Of a stretch of 64,000 nucleotides of DNA, positions 10,357 to 38,554 are shown piece by piece. Within the stretch, counting starts at the first letter, position 1, and every line of letters begins with the position of its first letter. The position numbers and the translations under genes are program-made. Origin of the DNA: Acidobacteriota bacterium (lineage in GTDB: Bacteria > Acidobacteriota > Terriglobia > Terriglobales > Acidobacteriaceae); the NCBI GenBank assembly GCA_003225055.1, contig QIAU01000134.1, positions 1 through 64,000 of the forward strand. Reading direction: 5' to 3'. The notes beneath the pieces are model-generated. The model was given only the letters and a program-made list of their open reading frames with translations. It ran no database searches and was not told the DNA's origin.

Positions 10357-10514
10357 CGAAATTAATTTAAATGACCCGTGCGCATGTGGGCAATGAAGGA
10401 TCAGTTTTTGAGGGCACTCGAACGTTACTTTGCTCCAGTCGAGTTTCAATGCAGACTTGAAGCTCAGGAATATTCTTTTTCGTGCCTCCGCTCAGGAATC
10501 GCATCCAAGATGGT

Positions 10515-12152: not shown

Positions 12153-12805
12153 CTCGGATTGCCGAGCGTGCGCACCAGCAACTCCGTGTCGTCAGAGATG
12201 ATGGCATCAACACCCCATTTCGCCAGACGTACCATGTCTTCCGCGCGATTGACCGTCCATACGAAGACTTGCTTGCCCGTCCTGTGCACCTCGTCCACCA
12301 GTTCCCTTCTGGTCAAGCCATGGTGTGGGATCACGTGCGTGATGGGAAGTTGACGCCAGCCTGCGAGTTGTTCGTGCCGGTCACAGAGGAAGCCAAGCGG
12401 AGTCGCAGCATCTCGAGTGTTGAGTTCACGCAGGACCCGGGGAAGAAACGATGACACGACAAAGCCTCGTTCCGGCCGATGCTGTTGAAGCGCAGCCAGA
12501 GTCGCCTCTTCTAGTCCCGGCACCTTCAACTCGATGTCGAGAAACGCTCGAGATTTGTAGCGCGCCAGCAGATTCTCGAAAAGCGGCAGTTCTTCGAAGC
12601 ATTCGCCCTTAGCCTGCGAGATCTCCAACCCCTTATAACGTGGATCGTGGCAGATGACCGGACGTCCATCGCTCGTCAGCCTGACATCGAATTCAAATCC
12701 GTGGCAGCCATGCTCGAGAACCAAGTCAAACGAGGGGAACGAATTTTCGGGAATTGAAGTAACGGCGCGAGCTCCGCGATGACCGAGCAGGAGAGGATGG
12801 CGCAT
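12149..12805 (-). CDS. Glycerophosphodiester phosphodiesterase
   Basis: 218 residues. Catalytic GDPD motifs: HRGARAVTSIPENS (His-Arg and the Pro-Glu-Asn turn), FEFDVRLTSDG with two metal-binding acids, and ICHDP with the second catalytic His. The end VDAIISDD is the usual last barrel strand. It lacks a signal peptide, so it is cytoplasmic and UgpQ-like rather than GlpQ-like. It hydrolyses glycerophosphodiesters to glycerol-3-phosphate, the substrate of GlpD encoded on the other strand with which it overlaps by 4 nt. Confidence 0.92.
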   Translation of the reverse strand: MRHPLLLGHRGARAVTSIPENSFPSFDLVLEHGCHGFEFDVRLTSDGRPVICHDPRYKGLEISQAKGECFEELPLFENLLARYKSRAFLDIELKVPGLEEATLAALQQHRPERGFVVSSFLPRVLRELNTRDAATPLGFLCDRHEQLAGWRQLPITHVIPHHGLTRRELVDEVHRTGKQVFVWTVNRAEDMVRLAKWGVDAIISDDTELLVRTLGNPS

Positions 12806-22450: not shown

Positions 22451-22583
22451 GCAACTCCTTCGCGTTCTCCAGCAACGGCTGGCACCTAGGCGTGCTTTGC
22501 CAAGCCCGGCGAAGGCCGGGGACGCATGAAGCTGAGGACTAGCACTGGACGCTGAGAGTGATAGAGTTTAGGTGAGGTCAACC

Positions 22584-23252
22584 GTGCGTGTCCTGATTGT
22601 CGAAGACGAACTACGGATGGCGGAAAACATCGCGCGCAGCCTTCGCGAAGGCGCCAGCTACGCTGTAGACATTGCCACCGACGGTGAAGAAGGCCTATAC
22701 ATGGCTCAGTCAGAGCCATACGATGCGGTACTTCTGGACCTGATGCTGCCTCGCTTGGACGGTCTGAAATTATTGAAGCAGCTACGCCATAGCAAGCAGC
22801 ACACCCCCGTGCTTGTCCTTACAGCTCGCGAGGAAAAAGAATCCGTGGTAGCCCTGCTGAATGCCGGAGCGGATGATTACCTGACCAAGCCTTTTGACTT
22901 GGGCGAACTGCTGGCTCGGACCAAGGCGCTCATCCGCCGTGGCAAGGGTCAGGCCTCGCCTGTGCTGACGATTGGCAATTTGGAAATCAACACCAGCAAT
23001 CGCGCTGTGCGCAGGGCAGGCAAGAACATTCCTCTGACCGCTATGGAATATCGCGTATTGGAATACCTGGCGCACCGCCCGGGCGCCATCGTTTCCAAGG
23101 CCGAACTTCTCGAACATCTTTACGACTACAACTGGGAAAAATTCAGTAACGTGATCGAGGTATATATCTCGGGGCTACGTCGCAAACTGAATGATGATTC
23201 CGAGCGTCAACTGATTCACACTCTGCGTGGCCAGGGTTACATGCTTCAATGA
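22584..23252 (+). CDS. OmpR/PhoB-family response regulator
   Basis: 222 residues. Receiver domain with acidic pocket VEDE, phosphoacceptor Asp in LLDLMLPRLDG (about 50), T in LVLTAREE and K in YLTKPFD; then a winged helix with LTAMEYRVLEYL, the recognition helix region NVIEVYISGLRRKL and RGQGYML. The GTG at 22584 is chosen because AGGTGAGG lies just upstream. The stop overlaps the histidine kinase start (ATGA), so both are coupled. It binds DNA when phosphorylated; its targets are unknown. Confidence 0.93.
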   Translation: MRVLIVEDELRMAENIARSLREGASYAVDIATDGEEGLYMAQSEPYDAVLLDLMLPRLDGLKLLKQLRHSKQHTPVLVLTAREEKESVVALLNAGADDYLTKPFDLGELLARTKALIRRGKGQASPVLTIGNLEINTSNRAVRRAGKNIPLTAMEYRVLEYLAHRPGAIVSKAELLEHLYDYNWEKFSNVIEVYISGLRRKLNDDSERQLIHTLRGQGYMLQ

Positions 23253-24673
23253 AGGGCCCGACCAAATCGATCAAGGGACATCTGATCCTGACCGTGGTAT
23301 TGTCCCAGCTTGTACTGGCGGCCGGTCTGGTCTTCACGGGCGTATTCTACCTGCAGCGGCGTTTGCAGGCGGCCCTCGACGCTGACTTGCAGGCGCGAGC
23401 CATGAGCGTTGCCGCCCTCGTACGCTACGCGGAGGACGGCAGCCATAACCTGGTTTTTGAGAAGAGCTTGGTTCCACCTCCGCTGGACTTGTCTCATCCC
23501 GATTTTTACGAAATTCGAAAAGACACGACCGTCCTGGCACGATCCCCTAACTGGCCGGCCGACCTGACCTTCGACAACACCAAGCCCAGAGCCTATCGTT
23601 CGCTGATGTCCTCAGGCCTACCCTACCGGGCGCTGCACCTGAATGAAGTTCCCATTCTGGATCGAGAAGAAGCCCCACCGTCCAGTTCTGACACGTTGAT
23701 CGTGGTCTACGCTGAGCCCACCCTGGCCCTGCGCAAGCAGGTTTTGGCCGCGGGAGTTTACATTGCGCTGGCCAGTCTCATACTGCTGGGGGCAACCGTT
23801 CTTCTGGCGCTTTGGGGCATTCGTCGCGGGCTTCTCCCATTGCAACTCCTGGCTGCCGAAGCAGCTCAAATCTCATCCCAGAACTGGGAACTGCGAGCGC
23901 CTCCAAACGCCATGCGGGTCGAGGAACTCAAACCGCTCACCGATGCCATGGGTACCATGCTCGATCGTCTCCGGCAGTCGTTTCTGCAGCAGCGCGAATT
24001 TTTAGGCAACGCTGCGCACGAGCTGAAAACCCCGGTCGCCATCCTGAAATCAACTCTGCAATCGCTTCTGCAAAAGCCGCGGACAGCGGCAGAATACGAG
24101 GCCGGCCTGGGCCAGGCCCTCGAGGATATGGAGCGCCTGGAAAAACTGCTGCATTGGATGCTTCGCCTGGCGCGCGCTGAACAGTGGGCGCAGGGCGCCT
24201 TGCAGCGCGACCTCGAAGAGATCGAAATATCGAACACTTGCGAGGAAGCCATCGCGGGACTCCGTGGTCTGGCTCGTTCGCGCAACATCAATCTCGAACT
24301 CAAGGCGGAGAGCAGCCTGGTCTGCAAGGCAGATCCCGAGGACTTGGAACTCGTCTGGGTCAATCTCCTGGAGAACGCCATCCGCTACAGCCCCGCCGGC
24401 GGGACGGTGAAGGTCAGCATCAGCCGCCATAATGGACGAGGTACGGTGGTGGTGGAGGACCACGGCCCCGGGATCCCGGACAAAGATCTCCCTCACATTT
24501 TCGAACGCTTCCGCCGGGCCGATCCCTCCCGCACCCGGGAAAGCGGAGGATTCGGATTGGGCCTTGCGATTGCAAAAGCGCTGGTCGAGGCGTACGGGGG
24601 AACCATCACTCCCGAGAGCACTCTAGGACAGGGCACCCGGATGATGGTAATGCTTCCTTCCGAGCGGAAGTAG
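23249..24673 (+). CDS. Membrane sensor histidine kinase
   Basis: 474 residues. Two membrane helices (about 11-33 and 168-190) flank a periplasmic sensor of about 130 residues; then a HAMP-like linker, the H-box NAAHELKTPVAILKST with phospho-His near 253, N-box VNLLENAIRYS, G1 DHGPGIPD, F-box HIFERF and G2 GFGLGLAIA. It autophosphorylates in response to an external signal and transfers phosphate to the OmpR protein encoded 4 nt upstream. The sensor domain is of no named type that I recognise. Confidence 0.93.
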   Translation: MKGPTKSIKGHLILTVVLSQLVLAAGLVFTGVFYLQRRLQAALDADLQARAMSVAALVRYAEDGSHNLVFEKSLVPPPLDLSHPDFYEIRKDTTVLARSPNWPADLTFDNTKPRAYRSLMSSGLPYRALHLNEVPILDREEAPPSSSDTLIVVYAEPTLALRKQVLAAGVYIALASLILLGATVLLALWGIRRGLLPLQLLAAEAAQISSQNWELRAPPNAMRVEELKPLTDAMGTMLDRLRQSFLQQREFLGNAAHELKTPVAILKSTLQSLLQKPRTAAEYEAGLGQALEDMERLEKLLHWMLRLARAEQWAQGALQRDLEEIEISNTCEEAIAGLRGLARSRNINLELKAESSLVCKADPEDLELVWVNLLENAIRYSPAGGTVKVSISRHNGRGTVVVEDHGPGIPDKDLPHIFERFRRADPSRTRESGGFGLGLAIAKALVEAYGGTITPESTLGQGTRMMVMLPSERK

Positions 24674-26898: not shown

Positions 26899-28050
26899 TC
26901 AGTCCTCAGCGGGCAGGGGAAACTCGCAGTCGAGAGCTGTACCCGGGTTGCCAGAGCGAATCTGCATCTGGCCTCCCAGCTGGCACACGCGTTCCTGAAT
27001 GCCGCGAATACCCACTCCTGGCGTCAAACGCTTCTGGTCTTCCGATGCTCCCGCGGACTGCTGGTTCATGCCCTTGCCGTGATCTTGGATACACAATCTG
27101 AGCAACCCCGGAGATTTCTCAATCGCAATCTCTGCTGTGAGGCTTCCTGAATGGCGGTGAATGTTGGTGAGACCTTCCTGCACAATGCGGAATACCGCGA
27201 GTTCAAGTTCTCGCCGCAACCTGCCCAGATTCTGAGGGAGACGCAGCTCGACCTTGATCTTGCTGCGCTCTGAAAAGCCATCCACATACCAGCGCAACGC
27301 CGAAGTCAAACCCACCTCGTCCAACAAAGGTGGGTGCAGCAGGTGTGAAATCGTTCGAATTTCGCTCAAAGCTTGAGCAATGAGCTTGTTACTTTCGGAG
27401 AGAAACCTTGCTGCTTCCGGCTCAACGTTCCCTAGGTGCTCTTCGAACAAGGAGAGATTTACGGTCGCTGCAACCAGTAACTGGCCCGCACTGTCGTGCA
27501 ACTCGCGCGCCAGGCGGCGGCGTTCCGTGTCCCGCAGGTTCAGCATTCGGCCGGAGAGGCTTCGCAACTCTTCTTCTGCCCTTCTCCGTCCCGTGACATC
27601 GTTATGGACTTGCAGCCAGCGCGGTTGTCCCGACGCGTCCCCTCTGCTGGTGAAGCGGCACGCCACTATGACCCGTCTGCCATCGCGAGCCGTCTGCGTC
27701 AACTCGCCTTCCCAGCACCCTTGCCCGGAAATTCTTTTTTCAATTTCCTGCGGTGGTAGCGAGGACTGCGTTTGCAGGAGTGTCTCGGGCGATTTGCCCA
27801 GCACCTCGCTCCTGGTCCATCCGTAAAGGCGTTCTGCACCTTGGTTCCAGAAAATCACACGCCGTTCGGCGTCGAGAACAAGAATGGCCTCGCTCGCTAG
27901 TTCCAGCAGATCGGACTTCTCGAGTAACTCGTCCTGCCGCTTCTCCAGCTGTGCAGGCTCCGCTTCTCGGACCGAATCTCTTTTGGACACCGCGACCGTC
28001 CCGGCGCTTTGCCGACTTGCATCCACAGCCTCGAACTTAGGAGAATGCAT
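26899..28050 (-). CDS. Soluble PAS sensor histidine kinase, NarL type (HisKA_3)
   Basis: 383 residues without membrane helices. A coiled coil (about 25-45) leads into a PAS domain (LLELASEAILVLD to VTGRRRAEEEL, about 48-165), then the HisKA_3 dimerisation helix with ERRRLARELHDSAGQL, phospho-His near 188, and an HATPase with NIHRHSG and DHGKGM. Kinases of this class usually pair with NarL/LuxR regulators; the nearest one is at 48304, 20 kb away, so its partners may instead be the receivers next to it. Divergent from the receiver-RsbRD-like gene at 28272. Confidence 0.9.
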   Translation of the reverse strand: MHSPKFEAVDASRQSAGTVAVSKRDSVREAEPAQLEKRQDELLEKSDLLELASEAILVLDAERRVIFWNQGAERLYGWTRSEVLGKSPETLLQTQSSLPPQEIEKRISGQGCWEGELTQTARDGRRVIVACRFTSRGDASGQPRWLQVHNDVTGRRRAEEELRSLSGRMLNLRDTERRRLARELHDSAGQLLVAATVNLSLFEEHLGNVEPEAARFLSESNKLIAQALSEIRTISHLLHPPLLDEVGLTSALRWYVDGFSERSKIKVELRLPQNLGRLRRELELAVFRIVQEGLTNIHRHSGSLTAEIAIEKSPGLLRLCIQDHGKGMNQQSAGASEDQKRLTPGVGIRGIQERVCQLGGQMQIRSGNPGTALDCEFPLPAED

Positions 28051-28271: not shown

Positions 28272-29114
28272 ATGCCCGCCGGCAAACGTATTCTTTTTGT
28301 TGATGATGAAGCCAGCATTCGTCTGACTCTCCCTCCCGTCCTCGAGAAGGAAGGTTTTCAGGTCCATGTCGCGGGAAGCGTCGCGGAAGCACTCGTCGAG
28401 ATCAACAGCTATCAGTTCGACGTTCTTCTTACCGATCTCAACATTGGGGAAGAGGGCGATGGTTTCCTGGTCGTCAGCGCCATGCGCCACCTTCAGCCGA
28501 ACTGCGTTAATCTCATTCTGACCGGTTATCCGGCCTTCGAGACAGCCCTGCAGGCAATCCACAACCAGGTGGACGACTACCTGGTCAAACCAGCCGATGT
28601 GGAATCGCTGATCAAAACGATGCAGGAGAAATTGGCCACTCGCGATTCCCAACCCACTGCTGGACCGAAGAAGCTCTCTGCCATCCTCAGAGAAAACAGC
28701 AGTGAGATCACTCGGCAGATGTTGCAGGCAATGAAGAGGGATAGAAAGATCGCCAGCGTTCCTCTATCCGACGAAGAACGCATTGGTCATCTACCCGAAC
28801 TGCTCAACGCTTTGATCGAGCTGCTGGAGCGAGAACGCGACGAACCGAGTGCTGCAGAATTGCGCCTCGCGGGCGAACATGGAAAACGCCGGAAGAAGCA
28901 GGGCTACTCGATTCCGACTATGCTCAAGGATTTCCACTTTCTCCACCAGCCCGTCTACGACTTGATCCAAAGCAAGTTGATGGGAATGGACGTGACCGGA
29001 TTGGTTTCAGATTTGAAGCGCCTCGAGAAGAACTTGCACGCCATGCTTGAAAAGTCGCTGGAAGTATACGCCAAAGATAAACGCTCCGCCCGGTCGACGG
29101 CAATCCGTGGTTGA
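28272..29114 (+). CDS. Response regulator with RsbRD-like C-terminal domain (copy 1)
   Basis: 280 residues. Receiver domain 5-125: FVDDEAS, Asp in LLTDLNIGEEGDG (about 55), T in ILTGYPA, K in LVKPAD. The C-terminal helical domain (about 140-270) carries EHGKRRKKQGYSIPTMLKDF, the HG-x-x-R-x-x-x-G-Y pattern of the N-terminal domain of RsbRD stressosome proteins. No DNA-binding motif. A paralogue with the same layout is at 37730, and the two bracket the gas vesicle cluster, suggesting a shared role in its control. It converges with the end of that cluster. Confidence 0.8.
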   Translation: MPAGKRILFVDDEASIRLTLPPVLEKEGFQVHVAGSVAEALVEINSYQFDVLLTDLNIGEEGDGFLVVSAMRHLQPNCVNLILTGYPAFETALQAIHNQVDDYLVKPADVESLIKTMQEKLATRDSQPTAGPKKLSAILRENSSEITRQMLQAMKRDRKIASVPLSDEERIGHLPELLNALIELLERERDEPSAAELRLAGEHGKRRKKQGYSIPTMLKDFHFLHQPVYDLIQSKLMGMDVTGLVSDLKRLEKNLHAMLEKSLEVYAKDKRSARSTAIRG

Positions 29115-29333: not shown

Positions 29334-29681
29334 CTATCTCCTCTTCGGTTCCTGATCCTGATGCAAGGTTACCGAAGCCTCGGCCTGATCCTGCCCACCA
29401 CCCCGAAACACCAGTCCCCGATCGGCGTGTTCGGGCGGCAAGCCAGCCAGCGCACGCTTGCGTCTTTCGATCTCACGCAGTTCGCGCAAAATGGCAGCTT
29501 CCTTTTTCACATACTGTTTCTCAGTGATTTCGCCTGATTCCAGCTCCAATTGCAGCTCCAACAGACGCTGTTTAATCGTGGCATCGTCCGTCCACTGTTC
29601 CTCCGCCACTTTGGACAGAGTACGGGCGATGAACCTTAGGCCGAAAACCGGCAGCAACAGCAGATCGTCAATTAGCAGCAT
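29334..29681 (-). CDS. gvpG: Gas vesicle protein GvpG
   Basis: 115 residues. Starts with LLIDDLLLLPVFGLRFIAR, the conserved GvpG N-terminus, then a charged helical region LLELQLELESGEITEKQYVKKEAAILRELREIERRK typical of the family, and a polar tail. ATG 29681 is chosen to match other GvpG proteins; an upstream ATG at 29702 adds seven residues. GvpG is an accessory protein needed for gas vesicle assembly. Last gene of the minus-strand gvp array, 21 nt after gvpF/L. Confidence 0.85.
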   Translation of the reverse strand: MLLIDDLLLLPVFGLRFIARTLSKVAEEQWTDDATIKQRLLELQLELESGEITEKQYVKKEAAILRELREIERRKRALAGLPPEHADRGLVFRGGGQDQAEASVTLHQDQEPKRR

Positions 29682-29702
29682 GCAAAATTCTCGGGCAACC
29701 AA

Positions 29703-30602
29703 TCAGGTCGCCGATACGCGTTCCAGCTTGAGCCTTATGTTGACGAAGTTGTAGGGCGGCCACGGGCCCGTGTACTTGAACTTTAAGCGCTTGCCGTATT
29801 TTCTTGCAATACGATTGACCACGGCATCAAAATCAGCCTCCCGGTGGCGCTCCACGAGGAACGCTGCGTTCATGATCATCTTGTCTCCGATAGGCTGATT
29901 GTCCCGGGAGGCAACACACACGCTGCGCAGCGATTCATAGATGTCGCGAACATATTGCGTGGCCTTCTCGACCAGCGCCTTGTCAATCATACGCCCCAGC
30001 TGCATTCGCGCCAAATAGGTCGATTGCAAGTGTTTGCGAATGATCTCCTGATGAAACTGCCGGATCTCTTCGTCGTCCAGCTTCAATTCCTCGATGATCT
30101 GATCGCGGTCCCAGTTGATTTTCAACCCGAACTCGAGCTTACCCTCCATCTGTTTCAAAACGTCTTTCAATGACGAGTAAATGCTTTTGAGCACCTCTCG
30201 AATATCGTCATCCGTGCGGAACACGGTTCCAAAACTCATGGGAATAATGGTGTAGTTCTTCATGACTGTTTCGATCACGTGTTCGTGCGCTAACGCGTTC
30301 TCTCGCGTGGGATCAAAGATGTAGACCGAGGTCTTGCTGACCACCGCGGCGATATCGAGGTACTTGACCATGTAGACTTGCTCACCTTCGCCGCCAATTC
30401 CTATTTTTCCGAAAGTCGTCTGCTCCTTGGCTTCAACCACCCCGTATACATAACGGCCACGGCCACCCTCCCCAGGTCGAACTTCAGGAGCCTGCGGCAG
30501 CTGCTCGGCAATCTTTACGTGAAAGTCCTCCTTGAGCAATTTCTTACGGCTTTTGCGTGGTCCACTCGCCGCTCTTGTCGCCATGCGCTTTCCCTTTTTC
30601 AC
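29703..30602 (-). CDS. Gas vesicle protein GvpF/GvpL (copy 1)
   Basis: 299 residues. YVYGVVEAKE (about 52) begins the GvpL/F domain; VIETVMKNYTIIPMSFGTVF and the C-terminal TGPWPPYNFVNIRLK are diagnostic. A basic N-terminal extension of about 40 residues (RKSRKKLLKED) precedes it. ATG at 30584 (residue 7) is an alternative start. GvpF/L proteins are accessory factors that contact GvpA and help nucleate vesicles. It follows the histidine kinase gene of the array by 53 nt. Two other copies are at 33995 and 34909. Confidence 0.9.
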   Translation of the reverse strand: MKKGKRMATRAASGPRKSRKKLLKEDFHVKIAEQLPQAPEVRPGEGGRGRYVYGVVEAKEQTTFGKIGIGGEGEQVYMVKYLDIAAVVSKTSVYIFDPTRENALAHEHVIETVMKNYTIIPMSFGTVFRTDDDIREVLKSIYSSLKDVLKQMEGKLEFGLKINWDRDQIIEELKLDDEEIRQFHQEIIRKHLQSTYLARMQLGRMIDKALVEKATQYVRDIYESLRSVCVASRDNQPIGDKMIMNAAFLVERHREADFDAVVNRIARKYGKRLKFKYTGPWPPYNFVNIRLKLERVSAT

Positions 30603-30655
30603 ACCCGCCTTCTATCGACTTCGCCAAAACGTGTCCAGCACTCCAAAGACCGCTC

Positions 30656-32782
30656 CTAGCGACGCACTGGCGCCGCTGAATCAATTGAAATCGGAAATGA
30701 CAGCCTGAACACCGTCCCTTTTCCTACCGTGCTGCGCACCTGAATGCGACCGGCATGATTCTCCACAATGCCTTTTACGATCCAGAGCCCCAACCCAGTT
30801 CCCTTCTCTCCTTTGGTGGTGACGAAAGGCTCGAACATTGACCGGTAAAGTCCCTTTGGGATACCGGTCCCCGTATCCGCCACCGTAATCTGAAGCGTGC
30901 CATGAACGCCATCGGTTGCCCGAATATACTTGGTCTTAATAATCAGTTTCCCGCCCTCGGGCATGCTGTCGCGCGCGTTGACCACCAAATTCGAGAACAG
31001 CTGGCGAAACTGGTCCGCCGAACCTTTCATACCGGGCAGTGCGCCGAGCCGTTTGTCCACGGCGACGCCCACCTTGGCCAGCGGACGGCCAAACAGCGTC
31101 AGAGTATCTTCCACCACGGCATTCAGGTCGAAGGCGCCCAGCTGTCCGGCATTTCGATAAAGTCCGAGCATCTGTCGGACAATGCGCGTCACCCGTTCGG
31201 TCTCGTTCTTTAGAACCTCGTAGATGGGCTGCGACGGTGCATCCAGCCGCCCCTTCAGCAGGTAAATAGCATTCTTGATCGCCTCCAATGGGTTGTTGAT
31301 CTCATGCGCGATCGTGCCCGCCAGCCGCCCGGTAGCGGCGAACTTCTCCATTTCCAGGATCCGCCGCTCCAGTTGGAGCTGCTCCAGCCGTTTCCACGTG
31401 GAAAAGTCGCGAAGCACCGTCACCGTATACGCAACCTGCCCGCGTGCGTCATAAATTTTCCCGGATCGGGCGGCATACTCGATCTCGCTGCGCGAGCCGG
31501 CGTGGTAGAGGCGTAAGGGTTTATTCTCCTTATCGGCGAAGGAGAAGGTAAAGGAAGTCAGATAAGCGTCTAGCTTGACCTGGTTCTTGACCACTTCCGG
31601 ATGCCGGTCGGCTTCTACCGAAGCAAACAGCTCTTTTGCCAGGGGATCCAGCATCACAATCTTCGCCGAATTATCGGCCACCACGATCGGGTCGCCCACA
31701 TTCTCAATCACCAGGTTCAAGCGGTCGCGGTCCTGGCGTACATTTTCTTCGGCAGCGCGCAGCTTCTCGAGATTGGCCCGGACCTCTTGGTCCGCTCGCC
31801 GTAAATCAGTCACGTTGCGCAGGACCGTCACCATGCCTGTGCGCGTCCCAGCCCGCGTATAGGTGGGAGCACAAACCGCTTCAAACAGAACTTCCTCGCC
31901 TTCCATAACGTCGACCAACGTCAGATCCCGGGATGCATCACTGGCGCCGACCACCATCGACGACAATGCCGCTGAAAATAGCAGATTGTTCAACTCGACC
32001 GCCCGCCGCCCCCCTTCGCTGATTCCTTCCGGTATCCGGAAGAACCGCTCTGCCGCCCGGTTCTGAATAATTACCCGATGCTGGTTATCGGTCAGAATGA
32101 CCGGATCGGCCATGCTTTGCATGACCGTGCCCATGCGGGAAATGGTGATCTCCATGTCCCGCACGCGGTCGAAGTAGTACTCCACTTTGAACAGTCGCGA
32201 CAAATGAAGATTGCCGCGGTCAACCAACTGGCGTAGTTGTGCCAACTGCGCCTGGCTGGGGTCCTTACCTAGCTGCGCCAGAGCCAGACTGGCATAGCTC
32301 CGCATCCCGCAGGCTGCACAGACTTGTTCCTGGAGTTGAAGCTTCCCTGAGGACTCGGAATTTCGGAGCGCGAGACAATCTCGGCGCCGTTCTCGCTCCG
32401 CTTCCCAGCAGCCGGTAGGGCTGCTGTAAATCATAGGGCAGGCGTAAAGGGAGCCTTCTTTGACCAGACCGGGTGGCAGTAGAGCCGGCCTGAGACTCTG
32501 TAGCACCGAAATCACCGGGTTCTCGCTGGCCCAGAGAGAGGTGTGGAATTTCTTCAAAAATGCCTTATCGCAATTCAGCGACGCCGTGGGCTCAACTTCA
32601 CCCGTCTCCAGGTCGACCTCCAGCACCAGGGCTCGGGGACAACCGAGAGCAACAATCTCCTCCAGAAGAATGGGCAAAACTTCTTCCCGCCGCACAGCGG
32701 CAAGCAAGCGCAATGCGGCTGGCTCCGTGGAAGACTTTGACTCAGATGGATCTGGCTTTGGTCTCGGCAGTGGGCTCGCCAT
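30656..32782 (-). CDS. Cysteine-rich PAS histidine kinase inside the gas vesicle array
   Basis: 708 residues, soluble. The N-terminal 165 residues have five Cys at 115, 125, 136, 155 and 158, the last two as CAAC, suggesting a bound metal, Fe-S cluster or redox switch (inference). Then two PAS domains (about 225-340, 365-480), the H-box TIAHEINNPLEAIKNAI, and an HATPase with NLVVNARDSMPEGG, DTGTGIPKG and GEKGTGLGLWIV. ATG 32782 is chosen because longer frames overlap the upstream gvpA gene. Its location between gvpA and gvpF/L on the same strand implies co-expression with the vesicle proteins. Likely partners are the receiver proteins flanking the cluster. Confidence 0.88.
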   Translation of the reverse strand: MASPLPRPKPDPSESKSSTEPAALRLLAAVRREEVLPILLEEIVALGCPRALVLEVDLETGEVEPTASLNCDKAFLKKFHTSLWASENPVISVLQSLRPALLPPGLVKEGSLYACPMIYSSPTGCWEAERERRRDCLALRNSESSGKLQLQEQVCAACGMRSYASLALAQLGKDPSQAQLAQLRQLVDRGNLHLSRLFKVEYYFDRVRDMEITISRMGTVMQSMADPVILTDNQHRVIIQNRAAERFFRIPEGISEGGRRAVELNNLLFSAALSSMVVGASDASRDLTLVDVMEGEEVLFEAVCAPTYTRAGTRTGMVTVLRNVTDLRRADQEVRANLEKLRAAEENVRQDRDRLNLVIENVGDPIVVADNSAKIVMLDPLAKELFASVEADRHPEVVKNQVKLDAYLTSFTFSFADKENKPLRLYHAGSRSEIEYAARSGKIYDARGQVAYTVTVLRDFSTWKRLEQLQLERRILEMEKFAATGRLAGTIAHEINNPLEAIKNAIYLLKGRLDAPSQPIYEVLKNETERVTRIVRQMLGLYRNAGQLGAFDLNAVVEDTLTLFGRPLAKVGVAVDKRLGALPGMKGSADQFRQLFSNLVVNARDSMPEGGKLIIKTKYIRATDGVHGTLQITVADTGTGIPKGLYRSMFEPFVTTKGEKGTGLGLWIVKGIVENHAGRIQVRSTVGKGTVFRLSFPISIDSAAPVRR

Positions 32783-32810
32783 CCCGTCTGCACCCCTCAC
32801 GGACGTCCCT

Positions 32811-33107
32811 CTAGCTGCGATGTCTGCCACGACGGACGGGTACACCCGTGATGCGTCTGGAAGTCTCCACCGTGGTCTCCCGCACTTCCACTCCCGGCAA
32901 CTGCCCAACCAGCCCTAACGCACCCACTCGGTCGGCGTATTTCAAATAGGTATCGATCGAGGCCACCACTATCCGCGCCTCGACCGTGATCAGATCAATG
33001 CCGGCCAGGGAAATGCGCATCCAGGCGTCGATTACGATGCCCTTGTCAAGTACCCGGTCGAGAACGTCTATCAGGCTGGAACCGCCTGGGACACGCTCCA
33101 CGGCCAT
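32811..33107 (-). CDS. gvpA: Gas vesicle structural protein GvpA
   Basis: 98 residues. The segment [20 protein letters not shown] and [28 protein letters not shown] match the helix-strand-strand-helix core of GvpA, the shell protein that forms the ribbed gas-permeable wall. The tail after residue 65 is longer and more basic (VRRGRHRS) than in typical GvpA of about 70 residues. It is the best candidate for the main shell protein because it retains DAWxRxSLxGI and ARxVxASxxTYLKYA. 48 nt separate it from the upstream gvpJ-like gene. Confidence 0.9.
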
Positions 33108-33155
33108 GAAGTCTTCCTCCTAAGACCCCGCCAACCGCCTGAACCCTGGCTAACC

Positions 33156-33455
33156 TCAGCGATTGCTGCGCAGCGGCCTCACCACTCGAGTCCGCCGCAC
33201 GCGTCGAGAAGCCGGAAGCGCGACCGGTGCCGTGCGAGCTCCCATCGTCAAATGCGGATCGAATTTCCACCAATCTATACCAAGCCTTTCCGCCTTATCT
33301 ATAGAGCAGATCAACAGGCGAATCCGGATGGTCAGTAACTGCACGTTCCCCAGCGAAATACTGATGTCGCCCGCGATCACCACACCTTTCTCCAGCACGC
33401 GGTCTAGGACGTCGAGCAGATTGATCGTTCCCGTAGGCAGAGGTGTTCGTTCCAT
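33156..33455 (-). CDS. Minor gas vesicle shell protein, GvpJ/GvpS-like
   Basis: 99 residues. The GvpA-type core is NLLDVLDRVLEKGVVIAGDI, SISLGNVQLLTIRIRLLICS and IDKAERLGIDWW. IAGDIxISLxxVxLL and the Trp-Trp end separate it from GvpA and match the GvpJ/M/S subfamily that shapes the conical caps. The C-terminus is very basic (RRVRRTRVVRPLRSNR). Part of the gvp array; 189 nt lie between it and gvpK upstream. Confidence 0.85.
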   Translation of the reverse strand: MERTPLPTGTINLLDVLDRVLEKGVVIAGDISISLGNVQLLTIRIRLLICSIDKAERLGIDWWKFDPHLTMGARTAPVALPASRRVRRTRVVRPLRSNR

Positions 33456-33644
33456 TTTGTTGGCTCTCTTTGAGGGGGGGAACAGCTACGCGTCCGGGTG
33501 ATGCTAATTGCTTCTCTAGACTATGTCAACGAATCGGTTCTTTGCCTTCTTTGCCAGGGGGGCGGAGCCGCTTAGATTTGGCATGAATCCAAAACAGTTG
33601 CTCATTTATCCCTTTATCTAAGGGATGTCACTATCTAAGCGACG

Positions 33645-33998
33645 TCACTTCTCCAAGAGTCGGCCCAAAGGCCCGAGGTCCAGGTTTAAATCCTGCGGCG
33701 TTAGCCCAAAATGTGTGGACAATTCGTGGATTTTAGCCTCCAACTTCATCAATGCCTCTCCCATCTCCTCTACTTGTTGGTCGCTCAACGAACCGCCTTC
33801 CATCCGACGAATGGCCTGCCGCTCCAGCAACTGGCGCAATAGCTCAATCAGGCTGAGCACCAGCTTGGCCATCCCCTGCTCTATGTTTTCGGGTGAACAG
33901 GCAATGCGCTCGGGAAGACTGGCAGGCGTCGGGAGATTGCCCTCCCCCTTATTCCCCGATCCCCCGGTGGAAGCGAATTCGGCTTCGTCCTCGATCAT
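33645..33998 (-). CDS. gvpK: Gas vesicle protein GvpK
   Basis: 117 residues. CSPENIEQGMAKLVLSLIELLRQLLERQAIRRME followed by LMKLEAKIHELSTHFGLTP and the end LNLDLGPLGRLL, all hallmarks of GvpK, an accessory protein required for vesicle growth. Acidic Gly/Asn-rich N-terminus of about 30 residues. Its ATG overlaps the stop of the upstream gvpF/L gene (ATGA), so the two are translationally coupled. Confidence 0.9.
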   Translation of the reverse strand: MIEDEAEFASTGGSGNKGEGNLPTPASLPERIACSPENIEQGMAKLVLSLIELLRQLLERQAIRRMEGGSLSDQQVEEMGEALMKLEAKIHELSTHFGLTPQDLNLDLGPLGRLLEK

Positions 33999-34645
33999 TC
34001 CTCACTCACAAATTCTGTGGCGGGCCATGGTCCACTGACCCGAGCAGAAACCCTCGGCGGCACATCCACCACAACCAATGCGCGCTCGAACTCAGCTACC
34101 CCGCGCCGGCTGACCAGGGCGTAACAACGAATATGATGCCGCGAGACATGCTGATGCCAGCCGCGAATCCAGTTCCTCCCTGCCTCCTGGAATTGCCCAG
34201 CTAGCTTTTCCAGCGCGGCCTGTTCCGCCTGTCGGCCTTTCAGGTACCCAGTCCCTGTCTGCCTCTCTGGCGCACCCTGCTGGGAACCCTCTAAGTCAAG
34301 ACGGACTTCCATCTGTACCACATCGCGCAAGCGTCCCAACGCTTCATGATATTCGGCCGCATGCTCGCCCAGATGACCGGTCAATTCGGCCTCGTCCGAC
34401 AGCACCGTAGGAAAGCGAAAAGGAATGATGGCGGTTTGTCGAAAGATCTCCTGCAGCACGCGATGAAAGGCCAAGGCCGCCTCGCGTGCCGGCGGACCCA
34501 GCATTGCATCGGAACTCGAGCTGCGCGATACAAAGCAGCGTAAGCCGGAGTGCTCCACGCTCTCCACCGCCATTCCGGCAACGCCCGCCGAGGAAACTTC
34601 AATAGGCACTGCGGATTCCGTAATACAGTAAGTGAGCGCCGGCAT
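33995..34645 (-). CDS. Gas vesicle protein GvpF/GvpL-like (copy 2, short)
   Basis: 216 residues. The N-terminus reads ALTYCITESAVPIE instead of the usual Y-x-Y-G-V-x motif, but FHRVLQEIFRQTAIIPFRFPTVL, the EVRLDL strand and the C-terminal SGPWPATEFV place it in the GvpF/L family. Shorter and more diverged than the other two copies. Ends in a 4-nt overlap with gvpK and starts 20 nt after the GvpA/J-like gene at 34666. Confidence 0.8.
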   Translation of the reverse strand: MPALTYCITESAVPIEVSSAGVAGMAVESVEHSGLRCFVSRSSSSDAMLGPPAREAALAFHRVLQEIFRQTAIIPFRFPTVLSDEAELTGHLGEHAAEYHEALGRLRDVVQMEVRLDLEGSQQGAPERQTGTGYLKGRQAEQAALEKLAGQFQEAGRNWIRGWHQHVSRHHIRCYALVSRRGVAEFERALVVVDVPPRVSARVSGPWPATEFVSEE

Positions 34646-34665
34646 AATTAGGAAGTTCGCGAAGC

Positions 34666-34902
34666 CTATTGCTTCGCTCGAGTCGGAAGTGCTCGCACGG
34701 GCATGTGCTGTAGTGCAGTCTCGACCGAGGTAAGGATGGCATCAAGCCCTAGGTAAATCAGGTCCACCCCAGCCAGAGAAATAATCAGGTTACCGTGGAT
34801 GATCACACCTTTGTTGAGGACGTGATCGAAAATATCCAGCAGTGAAGCTTCATCACGGGCAACTTCAGCACTAAGGAGTATCTTGCTTGCCACGCTGGGC
34901 AT
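34666..34902 (-). CDS. Minor gas vesicle shell protein, GvpJ/GvpM-like
   Basis: 78 residues. SLLDIFDHVLNKGVIIHGNLIISLAGVDLIYLGLDAILTSVETAL is a GvpA-fold core; HGNLIISLAGVDLIYLGL is closer to GvpJ/M than GvpA. N-terminal extension of about 20 residues. Six nt downstream of a gvpF/L gene, in the tight part of the array. Confidence 0.82.
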   Translation of the reverse strand: MPSVASKILLSAEVARDEASLLDIFDHVLNKGVIIHGNLIISLAGVDLIYLGLDAILTSVETALQHMPVRALPTRAKQ

Positions 34903-34908
34903 ATCTGA

Positions 34909-35688
34909 TTACCCGTTTCCCCGCGGGCCCGCATGGGCTCGCGTCACAAAAGAATACGGCGGCCAAGGCCCGGTGATTTCAATCTTTCGCACCTCCGCCC
35001 ATTCTTCTGAGAATTTCTGCAGAAGCGACTCCAGCTTTTTTCGATCACCGCGCTTCAGCAGCAGTGAAATCTGCCACTTCAACCCCCGCTGCGCTCCGCT
35101 GATCTGGCCGCCGGCCGCTGTTCGTACTGCGATGCGCCTCAGGGCCTTGGCGAATTTCTCGACCTCCGAATCCGTCTCCCGCACGGCAGGTCTCTGCAGC
35201 ATCGCGGCCTTGGCTTTAAGATATTCCCTTCCGCTCTTCATCGGTTCGGGCGGCGACTCCGGCTTTGCCGTCACAGCAAACACCTTCACCCCCCATTCTT
35301 CCGAATCCTTCACCCTGGCGAAGTCGGCTTCCAGAACGCGCTTGTTCTTGCGAACGTCCGCTTCGAGCGACGACGCACTAAGAAAAAGCGTGCCCAGACG
35401 GGCCGGCAAAATCTCGGTATGCTCGGCGATCGCTGATGCTACCTGCTGGTGCCGCATACTGGTTTCTGTCAACCAGTCCAGATTTTCCAGTTTGCTTGCC
35501 AGATTGTCTGCAAATGCACCCTTGTCGACGCGGCTGATCCAGCAGACTAGGCCCTCACATTCGAGCGGCTCAATCGAAGTAGTGCTATCCACCCCGACAA
35601 CGCCAGCCGCCAGCGCCACCTTCTTCTGTGTAACCCCATACAGGTAAAGCGCGGACGCGTTTGCCTTCGGCTTCACGTGACTTGCCAT
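34909..35688 (-). CDS. Gas vesicle protein GvpF/GvpL (copy 3)
   Basis: 259 residues. YLYGVTQKKV at about 15, then MRHQQVASAIAEHTEILPARLGTLF and the C-terminal ITGPWPPYSFV identify the family. A long coiled-coil-like stretch is at about 125-200. It overlaps the end of the upstream Get3-like ATPase gene by 16 nt, so it is coupled to it; this ties the ATPase to vesicle assembly. Confidence 0.88.
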   Translation of the reverse strand: MASHVKPKANASALYLYGVTQKKVALAAGVVGVDSTTSIEPLECEGLVCWISRVDKGAFADNLASKLENLDWLTETSMRHQQVASAIAEHTEILPARLGTLFLSASSLEADVRKNKRVLEADFARVKDSEEWGVKVFAVTAKPESPPEPMKSGREYLKAKAAMLQRPAVRETDSEVEKFAKALRRIAVRTAAGGQISGAQRGLKWQISLLLKRGDRKKLESLLQKFSEEWAEVRKIEITGPWPPYSFVTRAHAGPRGNG

Positions 35689-37622
35689 AATTCACCTGTA
35701 AACGCCCGCAACCCCGCTCTTCCTGTAATTTCTTTCGGAAAGTTCCGCACAACGTAGATATCAAGCTGCGGAAACCGTCGCTTGAAAGTATTCACCGTTG
35801 CTTGCTGCCATTTCATGGCCCGGCGGCATCGGCGGCATTTACCCACGTCTTCTGCAAACAAAATGCGATTGATAAACATGGACTTTGTGGGTAGATGCAG
35901 CTTGCCTAGGTCCTTTATCAGTCTCTCGGTCTCGCGGTCAGGCAGGGGCTCGGCCAGCATCACGGTATGTGTGCAGGCGCGTCGGGGGTTCTTGAGAACG
36001 CCTGCTAGTTGGCGGACCTGTTGCCCCACCTCCGCGACCTTCACTCCGGCATCGCGGGCAAGGGCTAGTGTACGGTGGGCGGCCAAGGTTTTCAACAAGG
36101 TCCGCGTCCAACCCAGGATTCGCTCCGGCATCCGCAAAAGCTCCAGCGCATGACCTGTGGGGGCCATATCGATCACCACTCGTTTGGAGCCTCGGCTCAG
36201 GAAACCGAGAATACGGAATATTGCCAATACCTCATCCACCCCAGGCGGAACGATCTCCAGCAATTCCGACAAGAGCTGCCGCTCAAAGCTCAAATCTATG
36301 TGAACCCCGGAAATCTCAGCGGTCGTTGCTTCCTCGATGCTGGACCTGATTTCAGTCACCCATTGTTTGAACAGCGCTTCCGAATCCATCTCCGATGCGC
36401 GAAACTCCCGGTCGCCAAGCACCGGCTCGGCGCGATCTCCAATCTCTTTTTGAAAGACATCATCCAGCGACGGCGCCGGATCCACGGAACAGATTTCGAC
36501 CGGGGCTTTCACTTTGGACCGCGTGTTAAACCCCAAACCCGCAGAAACCGTAGTCTTCCCCACGCCACCCTTGCCCACCACCAGTGAAAGAGGTGTCTCC
36601 AGAACCGGCCAGCGTGCGGATTTCAGGCGTACTTGCGGGCTCTTGGGAGCAGGAATATCCAACTTCAGAGGACCGCCGGAAAATACGTGTTCGGCAAACA
36701 ATCTCAGATTGCCGACGCCCAGAATCGGTGATCCCGGATCCTTTCCTAAATATATGTGTACCCCGCGGAACTGTTTCTCGAGAAAACTACGAGCTGCGCG
36801 GGTGGCTTGCGCCTTTTCCTGACACATTCGACACCGAGGCGAGCCGGTCACAGCGCGGTTTAGTACCACTGCCGCAATGCGCACCGGCGGAGAAAAGCTT
36901 GCCAAACGAGCGCTCGATCGGACCGACTCATTCAGCGAAAATTTCTCCGAGGTCGTCACCAGAAAAACTTTCGCATTTTCGGTCAGCACTTCCTGGATAC
37001 CCTCGAACATCTGTCGCCAATCGCTCAGAAATTCATCGCCCACCCGCCTGCTGGGGCCGCCAAAATGTGCCGCCAGCACGCGGTCGCGGCTCGCTGCCAG
37101 TTCCAGAAAATTGAGGAATCTCAGGAAATGTTCCGGCAACTGAAACAGCCTGAGGGTGTGCCCGAAGGGCGCAGTATCGACCACAATGCGCGCATATTTT
37201 CGCGAGATCAGAGCATCGTGCAATGCGAGCAGCGCTGAAACTTCTGCCATCCCGGGCAGCGTGCTGTCCAGCAAGGGCGCAATATCCTCGCGCGAGAAGA
37301 TGGCTCCGGCATCGATGATGGCCAGTATCTCCTCCTTGTATCGGTCCAGAAAATCACGAAACAGCTTCTCTCGATTGACTTGCCAGGCATACAGCTTTCC
37401 GCGGCCCCGCAAACGAACCGGCTTCGCCTCCTCGTCCAGCCGCACTTCCAGAATGTCAGCCAAGGAGTGCGCCGGATCGGTCGACATAAGCAGCACCCGT
37501 TGCGAAGGATTCTCTACGGCGCGGCGCACTGCGTATGCGGCAGAGACCGTGGTCTTCCCCACGCCACCTTTTCCCACAAAAAAGGCCAGTTCAGGCACAC
37601 GCCTATTGTATCCAGTTGACAC
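35673..37622 (-). CDS. Tandem Get3/ArsA-family ATPase leading the gas vesicle array
   Basis: 649 residues made of two homologous halves. Each has a deviant Walker A GKGGVGKTT (about 17-25 and 347-356), a switch I Asp segment (STDPAHSLADIL, SVDPAPSLDDVF) and a switch II VDTAPFGHTLRL / IDMAPTGHALELL. Each half also has a CxxC (CRMC near 263, CRRC near 596), a Get3 trait used for zinc and dimerisation; bacterial ArsA relies on other Cys. Get3 shields hydrophobic tail anchors; ArsA drives arsenite efflux. No arsB/arsR is near, and a GvpF/L gene overlaps its 3' end, so a chaperone-like role for vesicle shell proteins is inferred. GTG 37622 or GTG 37598 may be the start. Confidence 0.85.
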   Translation of the reverse strand: MSTGYNRRVPELAFFVGKGGVGKTTVSAAYAVRRAVENPSQRVLLMSTDPAHSLADILEVRLDEEAKPVRLRGRGKLYAWQVNREKLFRDFLDRYKEEILAIIDAGAIFSREDIAPLLDSTLPGMAEVSALLALHDALISRKYARIVVDTAPFGHTLRLFQLPEHFLRFLNFLELAASRDRVLAAHFGGPSRRVGDEFLSDWRQMFEGIQEVLTENAKVFLVTTSEKFSLNESVRSSARLASFSPPVRIAAVVLNRAVTGSPRCRMCQEKAQATRAARSFLEKQFRGVHIYLGKDPGSPILGVGNLRLFAEHVFSGGPLKLDIPAPKSPQVRLKSARWPVLETPLSLVVGKGGVGKTTVSAGLGFNTRSKVKAPVEICSVDPAPSLDDVFQKEIGDRAEPVLGDREFRASEMDSEALFKQWVTEIRSSIEEATTAEISGVHIDLSFERQLLSELLEIVPPGVDEVLAIFRILGFLSRGSKRVVIDMAPTGHALELLRMPERILGWTRTLLKTLAAHRTLALARDAGVKVAEVGQQVRQLAGVLKNPRRACTHTVMLAEPLPDRETERLIKDLGKLHLPTKSMFINRILFAEDVGKCRRCRRAMKWQQATVNTFKRRFPQLDIYVVRNFPKEITGRAGLRAFTGELWQVT

Positions 37623-37639
37623 TTTATGAGTGTGCTCAA

Positions 37640-37695
37640 CTGTCCGAGCTGTCCGAGCGGTTCCGATTGCCTTGGCTTTCCTGGTCGTTTAGAAT
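37640..37695 (+). promoter_or_regulatory. Candidate promoter and 9-bp direct repeat between the gvp array and the receiver gene
   Basis: CTGTCCGAG is repeated head to tail at 37640-37648 and 37649-37657. Ten nt further, TTGCCT (37667-37672), a 17-nt spacer and TAGAAT (37690-37695) form a sigma-70-like promoter for the receiver-RsbRD gene at 37730. The repeat lies between this promoter and the divergent ATPase gene, a good place for an operator controlling both. Confidence 0.45.
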
Positions 37696-37729
37696 CTGGC
37701 GAGCGTCACAGCCCGCCCGTAAATCAATC

Positions 37730-38554
37730 ATGGTTTTGGCCAGCCGCATTTTGTTTGTCGATGACGAGCCCAGCATCCGGATGATGCTGCCACCCGTCCT
37801 GCAGCAACATGGCTTTGAGGTGCGGGTCGCTGGAAGCGTCGCGGAGGCCCTGGTCGAGATCAATGCCTGCAATTTTGACATGTTGATATCCGATTTGAAT
37901 ATCGAAAAGCAAGGGGATGGATTTCTGGTGGTCAGCGCCATGCGCCATCTCCAACCTGACTGCGTCAACCTTATCCTGACCGGTTACCCAGCCCTGGAAA
38001 CCGCTCTGCAGGCGATTCATGACCAGGTGGATGACTACCTCGTTAAGCCGACCGACATCGACTTATTGATCAGAACCATTGAAGGAAAGCTGAAATCCCG
38101 GAAGCTCCGCGAGCCCGTGGCTAGGAAGAAGCTGTCGGTTCTCTTGAAGGAAAATGCTGCTGAGATTCAGCGCCAAGTCCTCGCCTTGATGAAACAGGAC
38201 CCCACCCTGCGATCGGGTTTCAAGGACGAAGCTCAAGCGAATAAGTTGGCGACTTTGTTAGCCGGTCTATTTGACCACTTAAACGGACGGGCCCGAGTCC
38301 CGAAGGACGAGCTCTTGAACGCCGCTATCGAACACGGCAACATCCGTAAGAAGCAGGGCTACACGGTCTCCATGCTCTGCAGAGATTTCCAATTGATCCA
38401 ACAAGCGGTGTACAAAGTAATCCGAACCAACCTGCATGTCATGAGCCCGGCCGGCTTGATTGGCGACTTGGAAACATTTCACGTCACCTTGAACTCGGTA
38501 ATGGCAAGGTCCATCCAGGTTTATGAGACCAAGACCAAGCGCTCGATCGCCTGA
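37730..38554 (+). CDS. Response regulator with RsbRD-like C-terminal domain (copy 2)
   Basis: 274 residues. Receiver 5-125 with FVDDEPS, Asp in LISDLNIEKQGDG (about 55), T in ILTGYPA and K in LVKPTD, then a helical domain (about 140-265) with EHGNIRKKQGYTVSMLCRDF. Closely similar along its whole length to the protein at 28272, for example VAGSVAEALVEIN and GDGFLVVSAMRHLQP, so the two arose by duplication. It is divergent from the start of the gas vesicle array with 107 nt between, hence likely to share control with it. ATG 37730 fits the receiver start. Confidence 0.82.
   Translation: MVLASRILFVDDEPSIRMMLPPVLQQHGFEVRVAGSVAEALVEINACNFDMLISDLNIEKQGDGFLVVSAMRHLQPDCVNLILTGYPALETALQAIHDQVDDYLVKPTDIDLLIRTIEGKLKSRKLREPVARKKLSVLLKENAAEIQRQVLALMKQDPTLRSGFKDEAQANKLATLLAGLFDHLNGRARVPKDELLNAAIEHGNIRKKQGYTVSMLCRDFQLIQQAVYKVIRTNLHVMSPAGLIGDLETFHVTLNSVMARSIQVYETKTKRSIA

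Follow-up and report, generated by a model that had tools for sequence, protein, structure and literature searches.

How can gas vesicles be assembled from a gene cluster that has no GvpN? This question is raised by a stretch of 64,000 nucleotides (hereafter the window), positions 1 to 64,000 of contig QIAU01000134.1 in assembly GCA_003225055.1 of an Acidobacteriota bacterium. A minus-strand array of ten genes at 29334-37622 is confirmed there as a gas-vesicle (gvp) cluster by Pfam and NCBIfam profile matches, and the gene at its head encodes a tandem ATPase of the ArsA/Get3 family. It is an open question in gas vesicle assembly how so hydrophobic a protein as GvpA stays soluble and reaches the shell, and our reading, to which we give a probability of about 0.6, is that this ATPase would be a single-chain Get3-like chaperone for GvpA-family subunits in a GvpN-less operon. 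Its family membership is close to certain and a role in gas vesicle formation is likely, while GvpA as its client is a reasoned guess.

What kind of protein is the ATPase? Its features are given below, with residues numbered from the start in the initial annotation of the locus (GTG 37622); motif positions come from alignment.

35673-37622, minus strand: tandem ArsA/Get3-family ATPase, 649 amino acids (aa) from GTG 37622, likelier start GTG 37598; PF02374 in two stretches (2e-88), TIGR00345 at 298.7 bits (cut-off 135)
37548-37574, minus strand: first P-loop, GKGGVGKTT, residues 17-25
36822-36833, minus strand: CxxC of the first half, residues 264-267
36549-36575, minus strand: second P-loop, GKGGVGKTT, residues 350-358
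35826-35837, minus strand: CxxC of the second half, residues 596-599

The true start is probably GTG 37598, eight codons past GTG 37622, because a stop codon stands just before the matching residue in five relatives. The two P-loops, a Get3-like CxxC in each half and an overlap of 16 nucleotides between the ATPase gene (to 35673) and the adjoining gvpF/L gene (from 35688), all noticed in the initial annotation, are borne out by alignment and coordinates. The deviant Walker A motif of the ArsA/Get3 superfamily, GKGGVGKT, is found in both domains, and the switch sequence is DTAPFGH in the first half and DMAPTGH in the second. The three arsenite cysteines (C113, C172 and C422 of E. coli ArsA) are present in 35/35 non-gvp tandems and in 0/44 rows of the gvp clade described next, and the score to the arsenite-ArsA equivalog TIGR04291 is 132.5 bits against a cut-off of 650.

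In a tree of 79 tandem ATPases (quick search, with Shimodaira-Hasegawa-like approximate likelihood ratio test, SH-aLRT, supports), all 43 gvp-linked proteins are separated from 35 non-gvp ones by a single branch (support 100*); cyanobacterial L147, from a locus without visible gvp genes, falls in the gvp clade. Of the cyanobacterial rows, 12 plus L147 were kept; L033, with a frameshift close to its end, the duplicates L235 and L312, and all rows, also single-domain ones, with fewer than 520 aligned residues were excluded. By their sequences, the gvp-linked tandems appear as a clade apart from arsenite-type ArsA. The initial annotation had counted homologues regularly found away from gvp genes, with ars operons, against its proposal. 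This applies only loosely: among the best 80 of 148 ATPase relatives 6 are near gvp genes and 74 have no gvp genes in the fetched DNA, but the tandem ones placed in the tree, all save L147, belong to another clade.

CxxC motifs are found in both halves of 24 of 31 non-cyanobacterial gvp tandems, and in the ATPase of the source genome the motif of the second half aligns with the CxxC of Get3. Position by position, the four cysteines of the two motifs are present in 23, 20, 23 and 17 of 23 gvp rows that lack a local GvpN, and each time in 7 of 8 non-cyanobacterial rows with GvpN. Ars-type proteins have a cysteine there in no more than 1 of 35 rows, cyanobacterial ones in no more than 2 of 13. 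Both motifs would bind zinc. As to the origin of the tandem, a further tree was built with each ATPase divided into its halves. There the gvp halves, N and C alike, group with the single-domain gvp ATPases of Chlorobiaceae and kin (98*), apart from the ars halves (97*); if the single-domain versions are not counted in, support for the gvp halves is only 58. When N halves are held together, the approximately unbiased (AU) test rejects the constraint (p 0.025); when C halves are held together, it does not (p 0.173). Thus, a duplication separate from that of ArsA is favoured for the gvp tandem, although not settled. Single-domain ATPases stand beside GvpN in the gvp clusters of L149, L151 and several of L241-L264 (Chlorobiaceae and kin).

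The AlphaFold2 model of the ATPase, built with 21 sequences, has a predicted local distance difference test score (pLDDT) of 87.8 and a predicted template modelling score (pTM) of 0.88. As a whole it matches closed L. ferriphilum ArsA (Z 33.1, 2.9 A, 531 residues), and the closest sequence in the PDB is that of Chlamydomonas ArsA1. For the C half, the match is to Get3 in complex with a transmembrane segment (4xvu_B; Z 26.0, 2.2 A, 275 residues), and the N half, which is less covered, reaches Z 19.3 over 263 residues with 6bs3_A, a bacterial Get3-like protein. Where Get3 has its client-binding helices, the aligned gvp-type segments average 67 and 62 residues against 54 and 43 in ars-type proteins, their share of A/I/L/V/M/F/W is 43 and 48% against 36 and 35%, and the C-half segment is more hydrophobic than its ars-type counterpart (mean Kyte-Doolittle 0.07 against -0.50). 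The Get3-like character that was first suggested from the motifs is upheld by the loss of arsenite cysteines in the gvp clade, by the CxxC in both halves and by the match of the C half to client-bound Get3.

The other nine genes of the array follow the ATPase gene in the order below, which is the order of transcription; all reading frames are uninterrupted from start to stop.

34909-35688, minus strand: GvpF/L-1, 259 aa (PF06386, 3.1e-34)
34666-34902, minus strand: GvpA-family 1, 78 aa (PF00741, 3.9e-14; far under the cut-off of each named GvpA/J/M model), perhaps a minor paralogue
33995-34645, minus strand: GvpF/L-2, 216 aa (PF06386, 3.5e-26)
33645-33998, minus strand: GvpK, 117 aa (PF05121, 1e-35)
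33501-33529, minus strand: promoter-like TTGACA-17-TAGCAT upstream of GvpA-family 2, by consensus match only
33156-33455, minus strand: GvpA-family 2, 99 aa (PF00741, 1.3e-15; GvpJ is the nearest model, under its cut-off)
32811-33107, minus strand: GvpA-family 3, 98 aa (107.1 bits to a GvpA subfamily model, cut-off 100), candidate main shell protein
30656-32782, minus strand: sensor histidine kinase, about 708 aa, probable start ATG 32782 (PAS, HisKA and HATPase_c by Pfam)
29703-30602, minus strand: GvpF/L-3, 299 aa (PF06386, 6.1e-75)
29334-29702, minus strand: GvpG, 122 aa (PF05120, 7.5e-16)

By Pfam, the array thus holds three PF06386 (GvpL/F), three PF00741 (GvpA family), one PF05121 (GvpK) and one PF05120 (GvpG) proteins. 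These genes and their coordinates had all been named correctly in the initial annotation, while the histidine kinase inside the array had gone unmentioned. The start of the kinase is presumably ATG 32782, as judged from a MAxP sequence common to relatives; the TTG start in the list of open reading frames would run into GvpA-family 3. From common strand, spacing and conservation, the ten genes probably make up one operon. The promoter-like sequence is the best sigma-70-like match of the region and the sole one with 10 of 12 consensus positions, among 7 matches found against 3.7 expected.

A search of 41 genomes, the source genome included, gave ATPase matches in 16. Besides the source genome there are seven close relatives with 51-64% identity (one frameshifted near its end), and all seven, which belong to the same family, have the corresponding ten genes in an unchanged order, kinase included. 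Weaker matches in G039 and G040 are also gvp-linked with a different gene order, while G022, G004, G029 and a second G040 gene, weaker matches too, have no gvp genes nearby. Less than 600 bases separate the ATPase gene from a neighbouring gvpF/L gene in at least 15 of the 16 clusters with a kinase, at least 4 of the 8 further ones that have no local GvpN and at least 23 of the 30 cyanobacterial loci; overlapping frames were thinned, which makes these counts lower bounds. A kinase-bearing GvpN-less cluster in G360 (L131) is devoid of the ATPase, GvpF/L-1 and GvpA-family 1 all together, as if these three formed a functional module.

Is GvpN really missing? The initial annotation saw none in the window, and a genome-wide check with TIGR02640 agrees: the best scores in the source genome (7.41 Mb, 98.73% complete) are 24, 22.3 and 20.6 bits against a cut-off of 266.8, nothing appears at 1e-10, and the same loose threshold is passed by 12 of 14 control genomes. 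These scores give no sign of a GvpN elsewhere in the source genome. TIGR02640 finds no GvpN either in the seven relatives with this array. G111 and G158, of the source genome's family, have another gvp cluster in which GvpN and the ATPase occur together. A close homologue of the embedded kinase (>500 bits to a custom profile) is found at 18 distinct gvp loci in Acidobacteriota and Myxococcota; the genomes of all 18 give no GvpN with TIGR02640, and among the loci examined no GvpN-bearing one has such a kinase. In family f28 and in G105, the GvpN-less clusters have these gvp genes but no kinase; those of G105 and G290 are divided between two contigs. The source array belongs to a little-described GvpN-less type of gas-vesicle cluster, often with its own sensor kinase, in Acidobacteriota and Myxococcota. 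According to a 2022 review, gvpN is conserved across all gvp clusters (PMC9501494; this and the other papers cited are used as far as their accessible excerpts go), and the GvpN-less clusters are exceptions to this. In other systems, deletion of GvpN results in small vesicles or bicones without elongation (PMC11445434, PMC9501494), which gives a clear prediction for organisms with GvpN-less clusters.

Does the ATPase then replace GvpN, as the initial annotation proposed? GvpK-positive genomes were surveyed in four phylum samples, 113 in total: 23 of 396 Acidobacteriota, 15 of 377 Myxococcota (the phylum of Labilithrix), 46 of 292 Cyanobacteria (that of Nostoc) and 29 of 375 Bacteroidota (that of a Chlorobiaceae genome). 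Counts, compiled by hand, are in the order ATPase with GvpN, ATPase without GvpN, GvpN without ATPase, neither.

Acidobacteriota: 4, 11, 5, 3
Myxococcota: 4, 3, 8, 0
Cyanobacteria: 30, 0, 16, 0
Bacteroidota: 16, 0, 9, 4
All 113 genomes: 54, 14, 38, 7 (Fisher p 0.62)
Minus the four centre genomes: 52, 12, 38, 7 (p 0.80)

The centre genome of each sample (G000, G434, G429, G432) and G433 were known beforehand as ATPase carriers; apart from these five, the seven relatives and the loci found by way of the ATPase were kept out of the table, and G040, first found by its ATPase, was later drawn in a phylum sample as well. In Myxococcota, Cyanobacteria and Bacteroidota the search for the ATPase, with a custom profile, extended to about 10 kb from GvpK. 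For GvpN, the whole genome was searched in all 23 Acidobacteriota and 15 Myxococcota, as well as in those cyanobacterial (10) and Bacteroidota (13) genomes that have no local GvpN; in the remaining 36 and 16 a local profile match decided. G1392, on a cut contig with an ATPase fragment at the contig end, is counted as ATPase-less (the opposite count gives p 0.33), as is G1372 with a weak match of 436 aa on the other strand. G207, with one ATPase half recognised on a 9.6-kb contig, is counted as ATPase-bearing, and the ATPases of G105 and G290, which lie with GvpG and GvpF/L on a contig other than that of GvpK, are counted as gvp-linked.

Overall, there is no association between the ATPase and the absence of gvpN, contrary to what the initial annotation had expected from such a survey, and 54 of 68 genomes with a gvp-locus ATPase carry GvpN as well. 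Strict replacement of GvpN as a general rule is rejected by this co-occurrence, of which G111 and G158 are examples within the family. What stands of the proposal is an anticorrelation in two phyla: in Acidobacteriota and Myxococcota together, the ATPase is found in 14 of 17 GvpN-less and 8 of 21 GvpN-bearing genomes (p 0.009, or 0.019 minus two centres), and the three ATPase-less exceptions among the 17 (G329, G353 and G360) have gvp sets that seem incomplete or cut nearby. How many events are behind it? In the ATPase tree, one branch (SH-aLRT 94, not starred) separates 21 rows from GvpN-less genomes from the GvpN-bearing rows, if two f64 rows are counted as GvpN-bearing on the ground that GvpN is on another contig in those genomes. 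Because the GvpN-less rows group in this way, only few events underlie the anticorrelation. On a tree of GvpK, built from 108 rows and 102 columns, the state of GvpN has to change 8 times and that of the ATPase 17 times; the alignment is too short, so that its lineages are poorly resolved, and an independent-pairs test on it gives a median p of 0.625 with 5 starred pairs. We take the ATPase to be a partner of gvp genes that is older and often optional; one or a few lineages would have retained it while they lack GvpN. Given the anticorrelation, a local takeover of the GvpN role within the two phyla is possible.

How may a Get3-like chaperone work here? With two fused Get3-like halves in which both P-loops and both zinc-type CxxC motifs are kept, the ATPase would be a single-chain counterpart of the Get3 homodimer. 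ATP binding and hydrolysis might open and close it over the hydrophobic face of nascent GvpA-family proteins, so that, as an ATP-driven holdase, it would hold them in solution and then deliver them either to GvpF/L and GvpG or directly to the shell as it grows. Because the ATPase gene often adjoins gvpF/L and GvpF is a proposed chaperone of GvpA (PMC11445434), the holdase is supposed to work beside GvpF/L. It could serve as an accessory of many gvp clusters whether GvpN is present or not, and in the source lineage, where GvpN is missing, it may be the sole remaining energy-using assembly factor. The boldest form of this idea, a natural GvpN-less system whose sole ATP-driven loader of GvpA is a single-chain Get3, one polypeptide containing both zinc hinges, and is controlled by a kinase built into the operon, seems improbable as a whole.

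Several points weigh against the Get3-like chaperone. The ATPase is not found at the gvp locus in 38 of 92 GvpN-bearing genomes, and it is therefore not universally needed; 7 of 21 GvpN-less genomes have no counted ATPase either (G329, G353, G360 and four Bacteroidota, three of these on cut contigs). Aligned CxxC motifs are found in 0 of 13 cyanobacterial rows, and one or both are lacking in 7 of 31 non-cyanobacterial gvp tandems, including that of G002 in the source genome's own family. The N-half client segment is no more hydrophobic than in ars-type proteins (mean Kyte-Doolittle -0.34 against -0.26), the AlphaFold2 model is a monomer with neither ligand nor client, and we know of no experiment on any gvp ATPase.

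Could the ATPase instead have taken over the job of GvpN, driving GvpA insertion and vesicle elongation in the source lineage? The lack of GvpN in the source genome, in its seven same-array relatives and in four kinase-bearing Myxococcota (G430, G434, G615 and G792) is in line with this, as are the contrast between GvpN-less and GvpN-bearing genomes in the two phyla and the defective gvp sets of the three exceptions. However, GvpN is co-present in most genomes with the ATPase, the GvpN-less rows trace back to few events with a weak result of the pairs test, and the two ATPases are of different families, AAA+ for GvpN and ArsA/Get3 here, which makes such a takeover quite unlikely. A different step in parallel to GvpN, in which the ATPase energises nucleation by minor GvpA paralogues, or acts in metal loading or regulation, accords with coexistence of the two in all four phylum samples and with seven GvpN-bearing clusters in which the ATPase gene is followed, on its own strand, by GvpK or a GvpA-family gene as the next gvp gene; Castillo and Saier also proposed distinct but related functions for both ATPases (PMC2963123). 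Linkage varies between phyla, however, and a separate step of this kind is rather unlikely, though a little less so than the takeover. That an arsenite ATPase merely sits beside gvp genes would be far-fetched: the family-level annotation as ArsA and the best whole-length structural match to ArsA speak for it, but all three arsenite cysteines are missing, the clade is separate, the position in the array is conserved, and among 33 window proteins scanned no arsenic-resistance family besides the ATPase itself was found, just as the initial annotation had noted no arsenic genes nearby. An arsenite function is rejected on cysteines, clade and context.

The kinase consists of an N-terminal alpha/beta domain, PAS, a second PAS-like fold, HisKA and HATPase, of which the N-terminal domain and the second PAS-like fold come from predicted secondary structure only (pLDDT 78.7, pTM 0.40). 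On the plus strand, the array is flanked by a pair of paralogous receiver-RsbRD_N proteins that share 53% identity. One is at 28272-29114; the other, at 37535-38554, probably starts near 37727, and its RsbRD_N score is under the cut-off. A homologue lies beside the G015 array and a more distant one beside the G185 array, and the flanking pair would be plausible phosphorylation partners of the kinase. Farther away in the window are a HisKA_3 kinase (26899-28050), a two-component pair (22572-24673) whose best models are heavy-metal regulators, under their cut-offs, and the bacillithiol enzyme BshC (14544-16220), over its model cut-off. PADLOC gives marginal scores only, and the window GvpK has no match in a plasmid collection. 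Elsewhere in the source genome are two lone GvpA-family genes (C67:3618-3728 and C231:62432-62542), with no further gvp gene in the fetched stretches. In other genomes, L292 (G1068) has three GvpK copies at 7885-12400, the first two followed by GvpF/L, with an exact period of 2020 bases, either a recent amplification or an assembly artefact. The f64 genomes G326 and G302 (L127 and L140) show second, partial ATPase copies and two GvpN copies on fragmented contigs, and apparently carry more than one gvp cluster.

A link between ArsA and gvp genes is not new in itself. Castillo and Saier reported it in 2010, with an acidobacterial cluster (two L/F, one each of J, K and M, no N) included, and noted that the arsenite cysteines are unconserved in the gvp-linked proteins (PMC2963123). 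In the accessible excerpts of that paper, a term search finds no mention of CxxC, and neither an embedded kinase nor a separate duplication is seen. In our literature search, outside which most subscription papers lay, no paper was found that joins gas vesicles with Get3 or an anion-transporting ATPase. As far as searched, then, the separate clade of gvp tandems, the CxxC in both halves of most non-cyanobacterial ones, the favoured separate duplication and the GvpN-less, kinase-bearing cluster type of Acidobacteriota and Myxococcota are new. A Get3-like ATPase at gvp loci in four phylum samples, hardly mentioned in the literature found, is a concrete candidate for handling GvpA, and the natural GvpN-less clusters could separate its role from that of GvpN. 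The cyanobacterial 'ArsA' nsp15480, probably the gvp-linked ATPase of locus L290 (G1097), is listed among arsenate genes, though numbered after gvp genes (PMC3610870); our results suggest that this listing should be reread.

How does the ATPase compare with known systems? The nearest are the gvp-linked ArsA proteins in clusters 4 and 6 of Castillo and Saier, including Aba1 from Acidobacteria bacterium Ellin345, which are likewise two-domain, amid gvp genes and with unconserved cysteines (PMC2963123); membership in these clusters was judged by gvp context, two domains and clade, with their sequences outside the tree. Their gvp versions are two-domain (PMC2963123), whereas the Chlorobiaceae clusters found here have single-domain ones. 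With E. coli and L. ferriphilum ArsA (1f48, 9nbw) the ATPase shares the whole tandem architecture and the best structural match, but these have the arsenite cysteines, a separate clade and shorter client-helix segments. GvpN (TIGR02640) is also an ATPase of gas vesicle assembly, but of the AAA+ family and mostly present beside the ATPase; the canonical gvp cluster has gvpN (PMC9501494), the source cluster does not. Get3/TRC40 resembles the ATPase in fold, above all in the C half, in the P-loop and in the CxxC, which stands at the Get3 position in each half, while Get3 is a homodimer of single-domain chains (PMC11170914) with known client and receptor. Chlamydomonas ArsA1 (5zme) is a tandem pseudodimer in a single chain that carries tail-anchored proteins (PMC11170914), and thus gives a precedent for a tandem carrying membrane proteins; it differs in being eukaryotic, in its clients, in its lack of CxxC and in a weaker structural match (Z 20.4, 292 residues). 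Unlike Chlamydomonas ArsA1, the gvp ATPase joins, as judged from its motifs, a single chain with both CxxC motifs.

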